The translations under genes were made by a program, and so were the position numbers. Of a stretch of 64,000 nucleotides of DNA, positions 2,982-56,660 are shown in pieces (position 1 is the first letter of the stretch; each line of letters opens with the position of its first letter). The stretch lies in the NCBI RefSeq assembly GCF_020514095.1, contig NZ_VTKY01000003.1, positions 1 to 64,000 of the forward strand, given 5' to 3'. Under the pieces are notes generated by a model. It was not told the DNA's origin and did no database searches. It was given only the letters and a program-made list of their open reading frames with translations. This DNA is from Synechococcus sp. MU1643. GTDB taxonomy: Bacteria; Cyanobacteriota; Cyanobacteriia; PCC-6307; Cyanobiaceae.

Positions 2982-3034
2982 GGTCAGCAGTCCCGGCCGA
3001 AGGCATCCTGGATCGGACCTGCCCACCTGTCGCC

Positions 3035-3364
3035 ATGGATGCCGCGAATCCTCTTCAGCAACTGCTGCTCCGTGGCCTGGGCACAACCACCCTCGTTGCT
3101 GACCGTCTGCGAGGCGTTACCCAAAACTGGGTGAGCAGTGGACGGCTGGATCCCAATGAAGCGTCCGCTCTGGTGGACGACGTGCTCAAGGCTCTCCGCG
3201 GCGAAACCCCTGAACTGGAACAGCAGATGGGGCGCAACCTGGAACGCAACCGCGACAACCTGCTCCAGGACTTTGGCGTTCCAAGCCAGAAGGAAGTGGA
3301 TGAGCTGCGGGGCCGAATTGATCGCCTCGAGCAACAGCTGCGGCAGATGAACCGGCCTGAATGA
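3035..3364 (+). CDS. Phasin-like small conserved protein
   Basis: This 109-residue soluble protein is predicted to be mostly alpha-helical, with a heptad-rich C-terminus (DELRGRIDRLEQQLRQMN) suggesting a coiled coil. Size and composition resemble the phasin-like/PhaF-type family common in cyanobacteria, whose members bind polymer granules or act as coiled-coil scaffolds. No polyhydroxyalkanoate gene is seen in this window, so the role is unknown. ATG 3035 was chosen because upstream in-frame sequence overlaps the divergent lnt and looks non-coding. Confidence 0.75.
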   Translation: MDAANPLQQLLLRGLGTTTLVADRLRGVTQNWVSSGRLDPNEASALVDDVLKALRGETPELEQQMGRNLERNRDNLLQDFGVPSQKEVDELRGRIDRLEQQLRQMNRPE

Positions 3365-3415
3365 ACGCCGACGCCGCGGACCGGAGGTCAGAATCGACGT
3401 AATAGAAGCCCTTCC

Positions 3416-4015
3416 GTGCGCGACATCATCATCAGCACAACGGTCTGCGTGGCCTGCCTTCTCCTGGCCCTAGTGAGCCAGATCGTGGCCCCCTCTACCG
3501 TTTCCGCAGCCCCAGCGCAGCCGGCTGCAGTCCGCACCGAGGCTTCGAAACCCCAAAAGACGTTGAGCTTCGAACTCGACCCTGACGACCCCAACCCGAT
3601 TCTTTTCGCCATGGCCAACGATTCCGCTCCCGCCGACGCCTCAGCCCTCGGCGGCCCCCTCGGTGCCCCTGACAACATCATCACCGCCAGTGGTCTGAAA
3701 ATTATCGAGCTGGAGGTGGGCAACGGCGAAGAGGCCACCCCCGGCCAAACGGTGGTGGTGCACTACCGCGGCACCCTGGAAGACGGACTGCAGTTCGATG
3801 CCAGCTACGACCGGGGTACCCCCTTCAGCTTTCCCCTCGGTGCTGGCCGGGTGATCAAGGGTTGGGATGAAGGAGTCGCCGGAATGAAAGTGGGCGGCAA
3901 GCGCAAGCTGGTGATCCCCTCCGACCTGGCCTACGGAACCAGAGGCGCCGGTGGCGTGATTCCCCCGAACGCAACCTTGATCTTCGAGGTGGAACTCCTC
4001 AACGTGCAGAAGTGA
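3416..4015 (+). CDS. FKBP-type peptidyl-prolyl cis-trans isomerase, exported
   Basis: The 199-residue protein begins with a Sec-like signal (hydrophobic stretch at about residues 4-30, ending in an AAPA-type site). A linker of about 60 residues and a single C-terminal FKBP domain follow. Domain hallmarks are [53 protein letters not shown] and [14 protein letters not shown], so isomerase activity is expected in the periplasm or thylakoid lumen. The start is GTG 3416. sodN begins only 42 bases downstream on the same strand, so read-through is possible. Confidence 0.92.
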
Positions 4016-4057
4016 GCGGAAGCTAGGCTCAACCCAAGCCAATTCCGCTCTGAACCG

Positions 4058-4531
4058 ATGCTGCGCTCGGCCCTTTTCGCACTTTCATGTGCCCTTCCTG
4101 CTCCCGTGGCAGAAGCCCATTGCGACGGTCCTTGTGGCGTGTACGACCCGGCTTCCGCCCGTGTGGCAGCCGAAGCCGTGCTGTCGATGACCAAAAAGCT
4201 GAAGGCGATGGAAGCGCCCGCCGCTGGTGACGCCGCTGCCCTAGCTGCTTACAACAACACCTTCGGCCGCTACGTCGCCATCAAGGAAGAGGAAGCACAA
4301 AAGACCAAGAAAGAGCTGTTGATCCTCTGGACCGACTATTTCAAGCCCGATCACTTGGCCACCTTCCCTGACCTGCACGACACCTTCTGGAAAGCAGCCA
4401 AGCTCTGCAGCGCCTGCAAGGTCAACATCGATCAGGCCAAGGCAGAAGAACTGATGGCTGCCGTTGAAAAAATCCACGGCATGTTCTGGCAGTCCAAGGG
4501 CGGTTCCGATGCCTGGGTCACCGCATCCTGA
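4058..4531 (+). CDS. sodN: Nickel superoxide dismutase precursor
   Basis: NiSOD converts superoxide to oxygen and hydrogen peroxide as a hexamer. The nickel hook HCDGPCGVY starts at residue 21, after a 20-residue propeptide ending VAEA. The mature enzyme begins at that histidine and uses His1, Cys2 and Cys6 as ligands, so proteolysis before the histidine is required. The rest is the usual four-helix bundle, and the 157-residue length is normal. A strong terminator follows the stop codon, then sodX, which supplies the protease. Replacing Fe-SOD with NiSOD is typical of open-ocean picocyanobacteria. Confidence 0.97.
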   Translation: MLRSALFALSCALPAPVAEAHCDGPCGVYDPASARVAAEAVLSMTKKLKAMEAPAAGDAAALAAYNNTFGRYVAIKEEEAQKTKKELLILWTDYFKPDHLATFPDLHDTFWKAAKLCSACKVNIDQAKAEELMAAVEKIHGMFWQSKGGSDAWVTAS

Positions 4532-4557
4532 GTACGCACAGAACCATTCCCCCTATC

Positions 4558-4594
4558 GCAGCAGCAGGTCTTCGCGACCTGTTGCTGCTTTTTT
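4558..4594 (+). terminator. Intrinsic terminator between sodN and sodX, overlapping the sodX start
   Basis: A 13-bp stem (GCAGCAGCAGGTC pairing with GACCTGTTGCTGC, one G-U pair) with a TTCGC loop is followed by six T residues. It starts 26 bases after the sodN stop. The proposed TTG start of sodX lies in the descending arm, so the hairpin can both end most sodN transcripts and hide the sodX initiation region. Confidence 0.9.
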
Positions 4595-4914
4595 GTGGGC
4601 GACGGCTGCTGCTACGGATCGAAGGACGATCGATGCAGCCCACCCTTGAACCCGGAGACCGGGTTCTGGTCAGACGGCTGGGACGGAAGCGCGCGCTCAG
4701 CCTGGGATCCGTGGTCGTGACCTGGCATCCGAAGCGAAGAAAGCTGCGTCTGATCAAGCGCCTGAAGAGCGTTGAGGAAACGGGGCTTTGGTTGCTGGGA
4801 GACAACCCCGCCGAAAGCACCGACAGCCGCCTATTGGGAGCGGTGCCAACAAAACTATTGATTGGCGAGGTGGTGGGCCGGCTCCCGCGCGGTAAATCAG
4901 AACAGGGCCGGTGA
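4582..4914 (+). CDS. sodX: NiSOD maturation protease SodX (signal-peptidase-like)
   Basis: The product is a short S24/S26-like serine protease. The catalytic Ser is in GRSMQPTLEPGDRVLVRR and the general-base Lys is probably within RLIKRLK, with the family motif LLGDNPAESTDSR behind it. It is thought to remove the SodN propeptide so that His1 becomes the free N-terminus. The Ser lies before the first ATG, so translation must begin upstream; TTG 4582 is the best visible start, though CTG 4606 or an ATT at 4546 cannot be excluded. The last 18 bases overlap the convergent NicO transporter gene. Confidence 0.9.
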   Translation: MLLFCGRRLLLRIEGRSMQPTLEPGDRVLVRRLGRKRALSLGSVVVTWHPKRRKLRLIKRLKSVEETGLWLLGDNPAESTDSRLLGAVPTKLLIGEVVGRLPRGKSEQGR

Positions 4915-5565
4915 GGTCTTCTGCAGCCAGATGGCCCCGGTGACAATCGAGAGAGCACCCGTACCGCCCACGATGAAAGGCATCAGCCGGGCACCGCTGC
5001 GGAGGGTGAGGAACGACACCACAGACACCACAGCCACCATGGCGCCGATAGATCCAAGTAGGTAAGCAAATAGATAGCCCACAGCAGCGTGGGGCGGCAG
5101 AGCCAAAGCAGGGATCACCGCGAGCAGGTGGCTGGCCCCCGCCAGGCCATGCAGCAGACCCAGGCCAGAGGAGGCATGGACGTGGCGACGGTGGTTGCTG
5201 GCACCGTGCACATGCAGGTGAAGATGACGATGCTCGGCGGCACCGTCGTGGCGATGCTCATGGGTGTGCAGTTTTAGCCCGAAGGCTGTGCGCACGGCCA
5301 AGGCACCCACCACCAGCAGGGCAACGCCCACGAGAAATTCCGCCCAGGACGACATGGCCTCCACATGGGCCAGGTCTTTCAGACCAATGGCGATCAACGC
5401 CAAGACCACAACCCCGGTGGAGTGACCGGCACCCCACGCCAGGCCGTGACGAAAGGCAGCCCATGGCTTGTTCAGAGAGAAGGGCGCCATCGCCACCAGG
5501 TGATCAGCACCACCAACCACATGAACGGCCCCGGCTGCAACACCGGTCAAAAGGCTAATCAGCAC
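4897..5565 (-). CDS. NicO-family nickel/cobalt transporter, probable nickel importer for NiSOD
   Basis: This 222-residue membrane protein has about six hydrophobic segments and an HVVGGADHLVAM segment in the first helix. A histidine-rich loop (residues about 98-130, many HxH) follows, then a second GLLHGLAGASHLLAV helix. These are features of NicO/UreH-like permeases, in which His/Asp motifs in helices carry nickel and the loop may bind metal. Its place directly opposite sodX matches the sodN-sodX-transporter linkage (sometimes called sodT) known in cyanobacteria. Cobalt transport is an alternative. Confidence 0.85.
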   Translation of the reverse strand: MLISLLTGVAAGAVHVVGGADHLVAMAPFSLNKPWAAFRHGLAWGAGHSTGVVVLALIAIGLKDLAHVEAMSSWAEFLVGVALLVVGALAVRTAFGLKLHTHEHRHDGAAEHRHLHLHVHGASNHRRHVHASSGLGLLHGLAGASHLLAVIPALALPPHAAVGYLFAYLLGSIGAMVAVVSVVSFLTLRSGARLMPFIVGGTGALSIVTGAIWLQKTSPALF

Positions 5566-5619
5566 AAAGAACCGACTGAATGTGGCAATTCTGCATCAGC
5601 AGTGAGATAGCGAATAGCT

Positions 5620-6507
5620 TTAACCGGCCTCGATCAACTGCACCAGACCAGCTTCAACATCCGGCTGCCGCATCAGGGCTTCTCCCACCAGCACAGCCCC
5701 CGCACCGGCGGCTTGCACCCGATCGAGATCGGCCCGGCTGAACAGGCCCGACTCACTCACAAGCAGCGCCCCCTGTTGGTTCAAACGGTCGTTGAAGTCG
5801 ATCATCAGTCGCTCGGTCGTGGCTAAATCCGTCTCGAAGCTGGCGAGATCACGGTTGTTGATCCCGATCAAGGGGAAGCCACCAATGCTCAGCACACGGT
5901 CCATTTCGGTGGCGTCGTGGACCTCCACCAACACCGTGAGGCCCAGTGCCGCCGCAGCCTTGTTGAGATAACGAAGATCCTGGTCCGACAGGATGGCAGC
6001 GATCAGAAGCACCGCATCAGCGCCGGCCGCCCGGGCCTGAAACAGCTGATAGGGACTCAGCACAAACTCCTTGCAGAGCAGAGGCAGGTCAACGGCCTGA
6101 CGCACTTCCACCAAGACATCAAAGCCGCCCTGGAAAAACGTCTTGTCAGTAAGCACCGAGAGGCAGCTTGCACCGCCAGCGGCGTAGGCCTTGGCAATCG
6201 CCACCGGGTCGAAATCCACGCGGATCACCCCTTTGCTGGGGCTCGCTTTTTTCACCTCAGCAATCACCGCTGGTTTCGTTGCGGCCGCCTTAAGTGCCCC
6301 CAGGAAATCCTTCGTGGAGGGAAGCTTGGCAATCTGCCGCTTCAGGTTGTCGAGGGGAACCTTGTCACGAGCAATATCGATCTCACGGTCTTTTTCCCAG
6401 ACAATTTTCTCGAGAATGTGACGTGGTTCTTCGTCATCGTGGGGCACCGCATATTCGAGATGGGCCACCCGCACCTTGGGGTTGGGGGGACGACGGCGGA
6501 TCTCCAT
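5620..6507 (-). CDS. trpC: Indole-3-glycerol-phosphate synthase
   Basis: TrpC closes the indole ring of carboxyphenylamino-deoxyribulose phosphate in tryptophan synthesis. The TIM-barrel motifs [14 protein letters not shown] (catalytic Lys), [22 protein letters not shown] and LVSESGL are all present. The 295 residues include the N-terminal extension of about 40 residues ([19 protein letters not shown]) usual in cyanobacterial TrpC. It lies 39 bases downstream of lpdA on the same strand and may be co-transcribed. Confidence 0.96.
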
Positions 6508-6546
6508 GGAACAGTGAAAAAGCTGGAACGAAAAAGCTGGGGGTGA

Positions 6547-7989
6547 TCAGGCGGCCACCTGGGCGGCAGCCTGCTTGTAAGCGACCTCCACCACCTCGCT
6601 GAGGGTCGGGTGGGTGTGAACTTCGGTGGCGAGCTGACGCACGCTCTGACGGCGGGCAACGGCATTGGCTACCTCCTGGATCAGGTCGGCGGCGTGAAGT
6701 CCGTAAATGTGGGCCCCCAGCACTTCACCACTGGTTTTGTTGAACAGCAGCTTCATCAAACCGTCGCTGTCCAGCTCTGCCAAAGCTTTGGAATTGGCCT
6801 TGAAATAGCTGCGAACGGAACCGAGCTGGAAGCCATCCTTCTCCGCCAAAGCTTTGGCATCCGCCTCGGTCAGGCCAACAGAGCTGATCTCGGGATGGGT
6901 GAAGGTGGCTGCCGGAATGCTGCGGTAATCGATCTCGCGCGCATGACCCAGGATGTTGTCCACGGCAACGGTGCCTTGGGCAGCGGCGGTATGGGCCAGC
7001 ATCAGCTTGCCTGTCACATCTCCGACGGCCCAGAGATGGGGAACAGGCTGGTCGTTGACCAAGACCCGCATGGCGTCGTCGATCGGGACGAAGCCGCGAT
7101 TCGTCTCCACATTCAGCGACTCCAAGTTGAGATCCTTGCTGCTGGGAACACGCCCTGTCGCTACAAGGACGGCATCAACCTCAAGGTTCTCGACAAGTTC
7201 ACGGCTGTTGAAATCAGCCAGTTCGATCTGCACCGGACAGCCCGGTGTGACTTTGCGGGCAAGCAGACCGGAACGCGCATCGATATCTCGACTGTCAATC
7301 AGATGACGCCCAGCAATCTTGGCGATATCAGGATCAAAGGTAGGCATCACCTTGTCCATGGCCTCGATCATCGTTACTTCGCAACCGAGGGCGGTGTACA
7401 CATCAGCGAATTCAAGGCCGATGTAACCGCTGCCGATAATGGCGATCCAGCGGGGCAGCCATTCCAGGTTGATGGCCTCGTCACTGGTGAACACCGTGCG
7501 GCCATCGGTTTCGATACCTGGCGGCACAAAGGGATCAGACCCCGTAGCGATGATCACGTCCTTGGCGGTCAGCACCCTGTCCACCCCGCTGGGCTCCCGC
7601 AGCCCCACCTTCTGGCTGCCCTCCAGACGGCCATGCCCCCGAAGGATCGTCACCCCGGCCCTTTCCAGGGTTTTGGTGAGATTGGTACGGATGGTCTGAA
7701 CCAGTTGATTGGCGTGATCAGCGATCTTTTGCCGTTCGAACCGCACAGGAGCAGCGTGAATTCCGAAGCTCGACAGGTGCTTGTCGTCCGCAAGTTCCCG
7801 CACTTTTCCACTGGCAGCCAACAGTGCCTTGGAGGGAACACAGCCCCGGTTCACACAGGTGCCACCCATGTCGCGTGATTCAACAATCGCCGTCTTCAGG
7901 CCGTTCTCGGAGGCATGTTTGGCAGCGTCGAAGCCGCCGTAGCCGGCTCCAATAACGATGACGTCGAAGTCGAAGCTGGCGTCGCTCAC
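6547..7989 (-). CDS. lpdA: Dihydrolipoyl dehydrogenase (E3)
   Basis: E3 reoxidises dihydrolipoamide of the pyruvate dehydrogenase complex and the glycine cleavage system, reducing NAD+. The protein shows the FAD-binding VIGAGYGGFDAA, the redox-active disulfide GGTCVNRGCVPSK, the NAD-binding IGSGYIGLEFAD and the C-terminal catalytic HTHPTLSE. The length of 480 residues is normal. The start overlaps the stop of the upstream SpoU methyltransferase by 4 bases (ATGA), suggesting translational coupling. Confidence 0.96.
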   Translation of the reverse strand: MSDASFDFDVIVIGAGYGGFDAAKHASENGLKTAIVESRDMGGTCVNRGCVPSKALLAASGKVRELADDKHLSSFGIHAAPVRFERQKIADHANQLVQTIRTNLTKTLERAGVTILRGHGRLEGSQKVGLREPSGVDRVLTAKDVIIATGSDPFVPPGIETDGRTVFTSDEAINLEWLPRWIAIIGSGYIGLEFADVYTALGCEVTMIEAMDKVMPTFDPDIAKIAGRHLIDSRDIDARSGLLARKVTPGCPVQIELADFNSRELVENLEVDAVLVATGRVPSSKDLNLESLNVETNRGFVPIDDAMRVLVNDQPVPHLWAVGDVTGKLMLAHTAAAQGTVAVDNILGHAREIDYRSIPAATFTHPEISSVGLTEADAKALAEKDGFQLGSVRSYFKANSKALAELDSDGLMKLLFNKTSGEVLGAHIYGLHAADLIQEVANAVARRQSVRQLATEVHTHPTLSEVVEVAYKQAAAQVAA

Positions 7990-25734: not shown

Positions 25735-25788
25735 ATGATGGAACTGAAGGCAGTGGTGCCTTCGATGCGTCGTTTGGGGGTGGGCTGA
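25735..25788 (+). CDS. Possible 17-aa peptide ORF inside a candidate short transcript
   Basis: ATGATG opens MMELKAVVPSMRRLGVG followed by TGA. The stop codon falls in the loop of the terminator at 25779-25807, so a short transcript could encode this peptide or be a plain sRNA. No strong ribosome-binding site is seen. The call is tentative. Confidence 0.25.
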   Translation: MMELKAVVPSMRRLGVG

Positions 25789-25807
25789 GGGGCCTACCTC
25801 TTTTTTT
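25779..25807 (+). terminator. Intrinsic terminator with no annotated gene upstream
   Basis: GGTGGGC and GCCTACC form a 7-bp stem (one G-U pair) with a 6-base loop, followed by TCTTTTTTT. No known gene precedes it on the plus strand, which suggests a short unannotated transcript starting near 25660-25720. The remaining sequence to 25903 shows no other supported feature. Confidence 0.7.
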
Positions 25808-56598: not shown

Positions 56599-56627
56599 TC
56601 CAGATCCGCAGTTCAAACCCCACGATG

Positions 56628-56660
56628 CGCAACCCTGGATTCAGGGTTGCGTTTTTTTTT
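56628..56660 (+). terminator. Intrinsic terminator after rpsD, overlapping the DUF4079 start
   Basis: CGCAACCCTG and CAGGGTTGCG form a perfect 10-bp stem with a GATT loop, followed by nine T residues. The best start codon of the next gene, TTG 56659, uses the end of this T-run. Confidence 0.93.

Follow-up and report, generated by a model that had tools for sequence, protein, structure and literature searches.

Partial terminators occur between genes of one operon, and genes of the infC type are started at AUU or CUG. The locus described here has traits of both. Like intrinsic and partial terminators, the hairpin found behind the nickel superoxide dismutase gene sodN (hairpin H1) has a GC-rich stem and a U-tract and lies directly past the stop of the gene that is presumably needed more. 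Unlike in these systems, both stem and U-tract belong to the coding part of the downstream gene, sodX, and keep in register with its reading frame. The likeness to AUU- and CUG-started genes is that a low-output start for a low-need protein would apply here too, and that ATT is found in some loci (L006, L007) where relatives (L013, L024, L058) have ATG. Unlike in infC-type genes, no near-cognate codon is fixed family-wide, and initiation of sodX at such a codon is a prediction.

The genes themselves form a cluster that is known from marine cyanobacteria. In its accessible part, PMC4284471 describes the sodN-sodX-sodT cluster and uses the name SodT, with assignment to the UreH family, and the same co-localised genes and names were recovered here. 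That part of the cluster account has no mention of a terminator in sodX or of a missing sodX start. Neither is mentioned in the accessible sodN/sodX literature, which covers few subscription papers, and with the same coverage no literature was found that joins Prochlorococcus with a non-canonical start codon. SodX is required for NiSOD according to the accessible part of PMC8346466, which also cites work on producing the MIT9313 enzyme together with its peptidase.

The sodN-sodX-sodT locus

The window, by which we mean the whole stretch of 64,000 nucleotides that was analysed, is from Synechococcus sp. MU1643 (contig NZ_VTKY01000003.1, positions 1 to 64,000). Its sodN gene was identified by a profile search with 216 bits (TIGR02753, cut-off 90), and the sodX frame obtained 101.4 bits (TIGR02754, cut-off 63.25). 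The coordinates of all features are collected in Table 1. Codons of sodX are numbered relative to what we take to be the catalytic Ser codon (4630-4632, codon 0), which was assigned via a G-x-S-M-x-P motif; on this scale TTG 4582-4584 is codon -16.

Table 1. Features of the sodN-sodX-sodT region; positions are those of the window.
Feature	Position	Strand	Remarks
sodN, Ni superoxide dismutase precursor	4058..4531	+	stop TGA 4529-4531; scores well above the cut-offs of TIGR02753 and PF09055
CTG overlapping the sodN stop (CTGA), codon -34	4528..4530	+	in sodX frame; candidate start
ATT, further candidate start	4546..4548	+	from sequence
ATC, codon -25, favoured candidate start (AUC)	4555..4557	+	onset of conservation, 17 loci
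sodX, Ni-SOD maturation protease	4555..4914	+	start uncertain; TIGR02754, PF10502; Ser codon 4630-4632
Hairpin H1	4558..4588	+	13 pairs (8 G-C), 5-base loop; sodX codons -24 to -14
Codon -20, first clearly conserved residue	4570..4572	+	within H1
TTG, codon -16, start proposed earlier	4582..4584	+	read as internal Leu; TTG in 19, CTG in 21 of 40 loci
U-tract, six T	4589..4594	+	within sodX codons -14 to -12 (L-F-C)
sodT, putative nickel permease, His-rich loop	4897..5565	-	synteny in relatives; name and family from the accessible part of PMC4284471; convergent with sodX

Of the 251 family genomes, 129 encode SodN (PF09055), as do 31 of the 34 genomes of the genus. A full-length sodX match lies beside sodN, once per genome, in all 20 genomes searched, and is above the cut-off in 17 of them. 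No second sodX was found elsewhere in these 20 genomes, the remaining matches being partial and weak (<26 bits). When repeats from the same genome are counted, the sodX frame is directly 3' of sodN in 217 of the 219 family loci that were fetched, and the two loci without an adjacent sodX are second, divergent sodN copies. These copies (L089 and L090, from genomes G222 and G101 of one genus) show a short G+C-rich inverted repeat past the stop when inspected by eye. Divergent sodN genes also occur in genus g8 (L072-L075, 41-43% identity to that of the window), where the gap to sodX is shortened. In three of these loci (L072, L073, L075) there is a TTGA or CTGA overlap at the sodN stop, in the sodX frame, and SodX is under the TIGR02754 cut-off in the three g8 genomes that were searched.

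The converging genes sodX and sodT share their last 18 bases (4897-4914), and a stem scan found no T-tailed stem of at least 9 pairs at the 3' end of either gene. Many relatives also have sodT on the opposite strand near sodN-sodX. Synteny and the His-rich loop fit SodT of the UreH family as presented in the accessible part of PMC4284471. The preliminary description had recognized a nickel transporter opposite sodX, of the NicO type. The gene is syntenic, in the place of sodT, but the Pfam NicO model gives no match; in fact the protein encoded at 4897-5565 has no Pfam match above the cut-off at all, the best being DUF3165 with an E-value of 0.91.

Loci compared

For comparison, 234 loci were fetched, with some genomes represented twice; 219 are from the family and 15 from distant cyanobacteria. 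Six genomes of genus g8, as well as G260, are not among the SodN genomes fetched. The full set retains 226 of the 234 loci (163 distinct, 154 of these from the family); left out were L089 and L090, which are additional copies of sodN, and six loci of distant cyanobacteria where no sodX is adjacent. In the first set 37 of the 234 loci were left out, which gives 144 distinct loci, 135 of them from the family. The 17-locus and 40-locus H1 counts, the tallies for codon -18 and for the sodN-sodX frame relation, the recoding and covariation analyses, the H1/H2 clusters, the tree, and the start controls for sodN and sodT are all based on the first set. Excluded by hand from the 40-locus H1 set were L014, L056, L011, L092, and L017, five loci that carry T-tailed hairpins other than H1.

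A terminator-like hairpin within sodX

H1 begins 26 nt past the sodN stop. Together with its flanks it folds with -29.8 kcal/mol (z -4.84), and none of 200 shuffles is as stable; when 221 nt are folded as one, H1 is formed and no competing structure appears. With its stable GC-rich stem-loop and the U run that follows, H1 has the sequence characteristics of an intrinsic terminator. There are six terminator-like sites in 3001-6600, a count which by itself means little because shuffles yield 4.1 +/- 2.2 such sites, but the stem of H1 is the longest by far. It is also the longest of the five T-tailed stems of at least 9 pairs that occur across the 64-kb window. Two more T-tailed hairpins of the window, with 11 pairs each, are at 25776-25801 and 56627-56652, both on the + strand.

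No Rfam family reached the threshold in 4000-5600. The H1 motif occurs only once genome-wide, the match on the minus strand being the same site. We considered whether H1 is a repeat element, and this is ruled out by its single copy in the window's genome.

The sequence was recoded synonymously, with the protein fixed and with the codon usage of the window. Only 1 of 10,000 recoded sequences matches the stem and tail of the window. At six other loci the same procedure gives 0 to 16 per 10,000, while an eighth locus (L127) is uninformative due to a stem mismatch. The protein sequence does not explain H1. The hairpin that the preliminary description had noticed just 3' of sodN is confirmed with its 13 pairs and six T, and both the relatives and the synonymous null indicate that it is conserved beyond what the protein demands. 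Such a conserved, terminator-like hairpin would lower the transcription of sodX.

In 40 of the 135 distinct family loci H1 covers one and the same stretch of sodX, from about codon -24 to codon -14, even though eight different spacings, from 12 to 43, separate codon -24 from the sodN stop. In the alignment of these 40 rows the six T columns are invariant. Pairing is found in 95.7% of the cells, a value that is reached by 2 of 500 shuffles. One C-G pair has been exchanged to U-A in 6 distinct rows, probably in a single event. Changes on both sides affect 2 of the 13 pairs, which is matched by 212 of 500 shuffles, and further pair types are not above shuffles either (450 of 500). Because neither of these two measures stands out from the shuffles and the exchange probably happened once, covariation lends only modest support to H1.

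The preliminary description had suggested a comparison across other NiSOD cyanobacteria. When a U-tailed hairpin is defined by at least 9 net pairs and at least 6 T, it is found at the H1 place in 42 of the 154 distinct family loci. It occurs in 18 of 19 records with Synechococcus in the title, versus 1 of 45 with Prochlorococcus in the title, and therefore cannot be the sole brake on SodX. On the protein tree the H1 label, which here includes stems without a U tail, changes 9 times, at least 6 times on well-supported branches. Among the distant cyanobacterial sodN loci, 5 of 15 have a T-tailed hairpin within 150 nt. In 9 of these 15 sodX follows, and all nine have a canonical start at or upstream of codon -18. 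L220 and L226 have both, with the hairpin first and an ordinary start behind it. The usual arrangement is thus present outside the group.

A second hairpin

Many family loci that do not have H1 carry another stem (H2) at codons -10 to -1, approximately, whose U-tract is poorer (1 to 5 T among 8). H2, as seen in L040, L126, L022, L004, L018, L057, and others, has up to 16 gap-free pairs (G-U allowed) and a 4-base loop. It sits immediately 5' of the catalytic Ser codon and exceeds the synonymous null in many lineages. With H1 and H2 pooled, 37 of 73 clusters are significant against the synonymous null at 0.05, and 27 remain so at 0.01. There are 33 gap-free stems of at least 10 pairs (G-U allowed); 17 coincide in position with H1, 15 with H2, and the remaining one with neither. 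This suggests that structure 3' of sodN is under selection in several lineages.

Neither a U-tailed H1 nor H2 is present in 40 of 89 clusters, and these include genus g17, which we take to be a high-light Prochlorococcus genus. It was also considered that H1 and H2 are strict alternatives. Both occur together in 2 of 73 clusters, versus 6.3 expected (Fisher p 0.022, uncorrected for descent), but such an alternation is only weakly supported, and many clusters have neither.

The start of sodX

The open sodX frame of the window has a single ATG, GTG or TTG before the Ser codon, namely TTG 4582-4584, which is located in the descending arm of H1. The preliminary description had reported this location correctly and had also considered the codon to be the best sodX start. 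The latter view could not be upheld: 19 of the 40 H1 loci have TTG at codon -16, but the other 21 have CTG, and the conserved part of the protein already starts further upstream. Among clusters without the U-tailed hairpin, 64 of 70 encode a hydrophobic residue at codon -20, as compared to 14 to 44% at codons -27 to -21; of the clusters with this hairpin, 18 of 19 have a hydrophobic residue at codon -20. All 23 hairpin clusters have Asp at codon -18, where 41 of the 57 others have Ser, Thr or Asp.

The 17 loci that share the spacing of the window give a more detailed picture. Codons -29 to -26 vary freely at all positions. In codons -25 to -18 the changes are mostly in the third position (64 and 67%), and codons -17 to -14 are without any third-position change, as would be demanded by the hairpin arm and the T run. 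H1 confounds this third-position test, and so the lineages without a hairpin are the better evidence. In L041, which is from the same genus, H1 is kept, codon -16 is CTG, and the entire open frame before Ser is devoid of ATG, GTG, and TTG. TTG 4582 is thus probably not the start. As conservation reaches codon -20, which is inside H1, H1 lies within sodX. Judged from the conserved codons, the real start would be upstream of the descending arm. To encode the residues conserved from codon -20 on, a canonical start would have to be located at this codon or 5' of it, and the sodX frame of the window has no ATG, GTG or TTG there.

A missing canonical start is not restricted to the window. No ATG, GTG or TTG occurs before Ser in the open frame of 33 of the 154 distinct family loci. 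In 60 of the 154 there is none at or upstream of codon -20 (94 have one), and in 123 there is none between the sodN stop and codon -20 (31 have one). Counted per cluster (n = 89), 18 are without a canonical start before Ser and 32 without one at or upstream of codon -20. It is absent before Ser from all 15 loci of the Prochlorococcus-like genus g17, from 1 of the 19 Synechococcus-titled records, and from 3 of the 45 Prochlorococcus-titled ones. Among the bearers of H1, a frame without any start before Ser is the exception. An ATG, GTG or TTG at or upstream of codon -20 is found in 22 of the 40 H1 loci, in 15 of them past the sodN stop and in 7 only inside sodN. As controls, an ATG was found for sodN in 131 of 131 usable loci and a canonical start for sodT in 83 of 83 (52 of 135 loci were not usable).

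Three near-cognate codons of the window are candidate starts (Table 1). Codons -33 to -26 show no coding-like constraint in the 17 loci with the same spacing, which speaks against CTG 4528. Conservation is seen from codon -25 on in these loci, although H1, which starts one codon later, confounds this. Codon -25 is ATC or ATT in 18 of the 40 H1 loci and is not start-like in another 18. It is ATG in L013, L024, and L058, where another ATG precedes it, and ATT in their relatives L006 and L007. In genus g17 (n = 15), codon -25 is ATT in 13 loci and GTT in 2; at codon -24, 14 loci have ATT and one has ATC. One fixed near-cognate start for all H1 loci can be ruled out because codon -25 varies; no near-cognate start codon is conserved across these loci, and a universal start codon of sodX is not claimed. 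All 30 loci of the first set that have no canonical start carry ATT, ATC, ATA or CTG upstream of codon -19, for which chance would often suffice.

Proposed mechanism and alternatives

The hairpin, its conservation, its register with the codons of sodX, and the lack of canonical starts are accounted for if a leaky terminator of sodN is located inside sodX, which itself is started at a near-cognate codon, so that two brakes would act on SodX. We assign to this reading a probability of about 0.64, having lowered our confidence slightly because 15 of the 40 H1 loci carry a canonical codon in the right stretch. H1 would be the intrinsic terminator of sodN, maintained by selection and placed in the first translated codons of sodX rather than before this gene. 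We infer that transcription by most polymerases would end at 4589-4594, giving an mRNA of sodN alone whose 3' UTR is short, and that a minority of polymerases would pass this point and produce a sodN-sodX mRNA. Stronger U-tracts accompany less read-through in Synechococcus elongatus, as stated in the accessible part of PMC13289151. SodX would be started upstream of H1 or at its foot, with AUC 4555 being favoured and CUG 4528 or AUU 4546 being possible, and ribosomes leaving the sodN stop would probably start SodX, so that the two genes would be coupled in translation. Two weak steps in series would make the protease scarce relative to its substrate SodN, and a low amount of SodX is plausible.

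It is also conceivable, but unlikely, that sodX acts as its own attenuator, with a ribosome that has started on a near-cognate codon soon after sodN, and that trails RNA polymerase through the first codons, keeping H1 unfolded. The rest of sodX would then be transcribed only once its own translation has begun. Protease output would be steeply tied to near-cognate initiation and to the supply of ribosomes and initiation factors, and SodX would be matched to the translation of sodN. Lineages without a U-tailed hairpin would keep the weak start as their only brake.

Other explanations have to be weighed against the reading of a leaky terminator with a near-cognate start. H1 might mainly be a 3'-end stabilizer or a processing barrier for the sodN mRNA, with termination being minor and with a promoter of sodX inside sodN. 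Other lineages keep H2 with its poorer U-tract, 37 of 73 clusters beat the synonymous null, and 32 of the 33 gap-free stems of at least 10 pairs are at the H1 or H2 place, all of which would favour a stabilizer. Canonical intrinsic terminators also represent a small fraction of transcript ends in S. elongatus (PMC13289151, accessible part). However, six T are invariant past H1 in all 40 rows, which stability alone does not need, and a crude scan revealed no sigma-70-like promoter in 3001-6600, so that we consider this explanation rather improbable. We find it quite unlikely that, as in the model of the preliminary description, SodX starts at UUG (or CUG) of codon -16 and the folded H1 both ends transcription and hides this start. 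The codon is invariably TTG or CTG in the 40 H1 loci, and in the frame of the window TTG 4582 is the only canonical start before Ser. Yet codon -20 encodes a hydrophobic residue whether a lineage has the hairpin or not, codon -18 is conserved too, and Leu at codons -17 to -14 fits a membrane-helix-like stretch for which no start is needed. L041, with H1 kept, CTG at codon -16 and no canonical start in the open frame, does not agree with it either.

Loci without a canonical start and a T run of at least six might be taken to indicate that SodX arises from SodN-SodX read-through, from a frameshift, or by slippage at the T run. This is very improbable, as all three possible frame relations between sodN and sodX occur (78, 51, and 6 of 135 loci) and the sodX frame opens only past the sodN stop in L064, L015, L171, and L172. 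A fusion by frameshift or read-through is ruled out by this varying frame relation and by the stops that intervene in some loci. It is hardly credible that H1 is a chance product of protein sequence and codon usage: while Ala GCN and Leu CTN codons pair readily, the window's stem and tail were matched only once in 10,000 synonymous recodings, and the T run does not vary in the 40 rows.

SOD content and annotation of sodX

The Fe/Mn superoxide dismutase domain PF02777 has no match in any of the 20 genomes searched, and the CuZn superoxide dismutase domain PF00080 is absent from 13 of them, so that 13 of 20 picocyanobacterial genomes match neither. These 13 genomes, which show no other SOD, presumably depend on SodX. 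Nine of them (G017, G220, G095, G245, G152, G003, G039, G078, G010) have one full sodX, and this has no canonical start before Ser. In Prochlorococcus, sodN is the only sod gene according to the accessible part of PMC3441193. If this holds and if SodX is indeed needed for NiSOD, translation of SodX in those nine genomes must begin at a different codon. The window's genome has a CuZn SOD, and thus SodX need not be essential there.

A survey in the accessible part of PMC8346466 lists ten cyanobacteria with sodN but without sodX, four of which are picocyanobacteria without another SOD, and considers that the missing sodX is perhaps unsequenced. As the sodX frame follows sodN in nearly all family loci fetched, the reported absence of sodX from picocyanobacteria may instead be an annotation gap. 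Gene callers seek a start codon that nine of the 13 genomes do not have. Beyond annotation, the sodN-sodX locus would be a compact case of a terminator that is conserved within a coding sequence, in a phylum that is without Rho (PMC13289151, accessible part).
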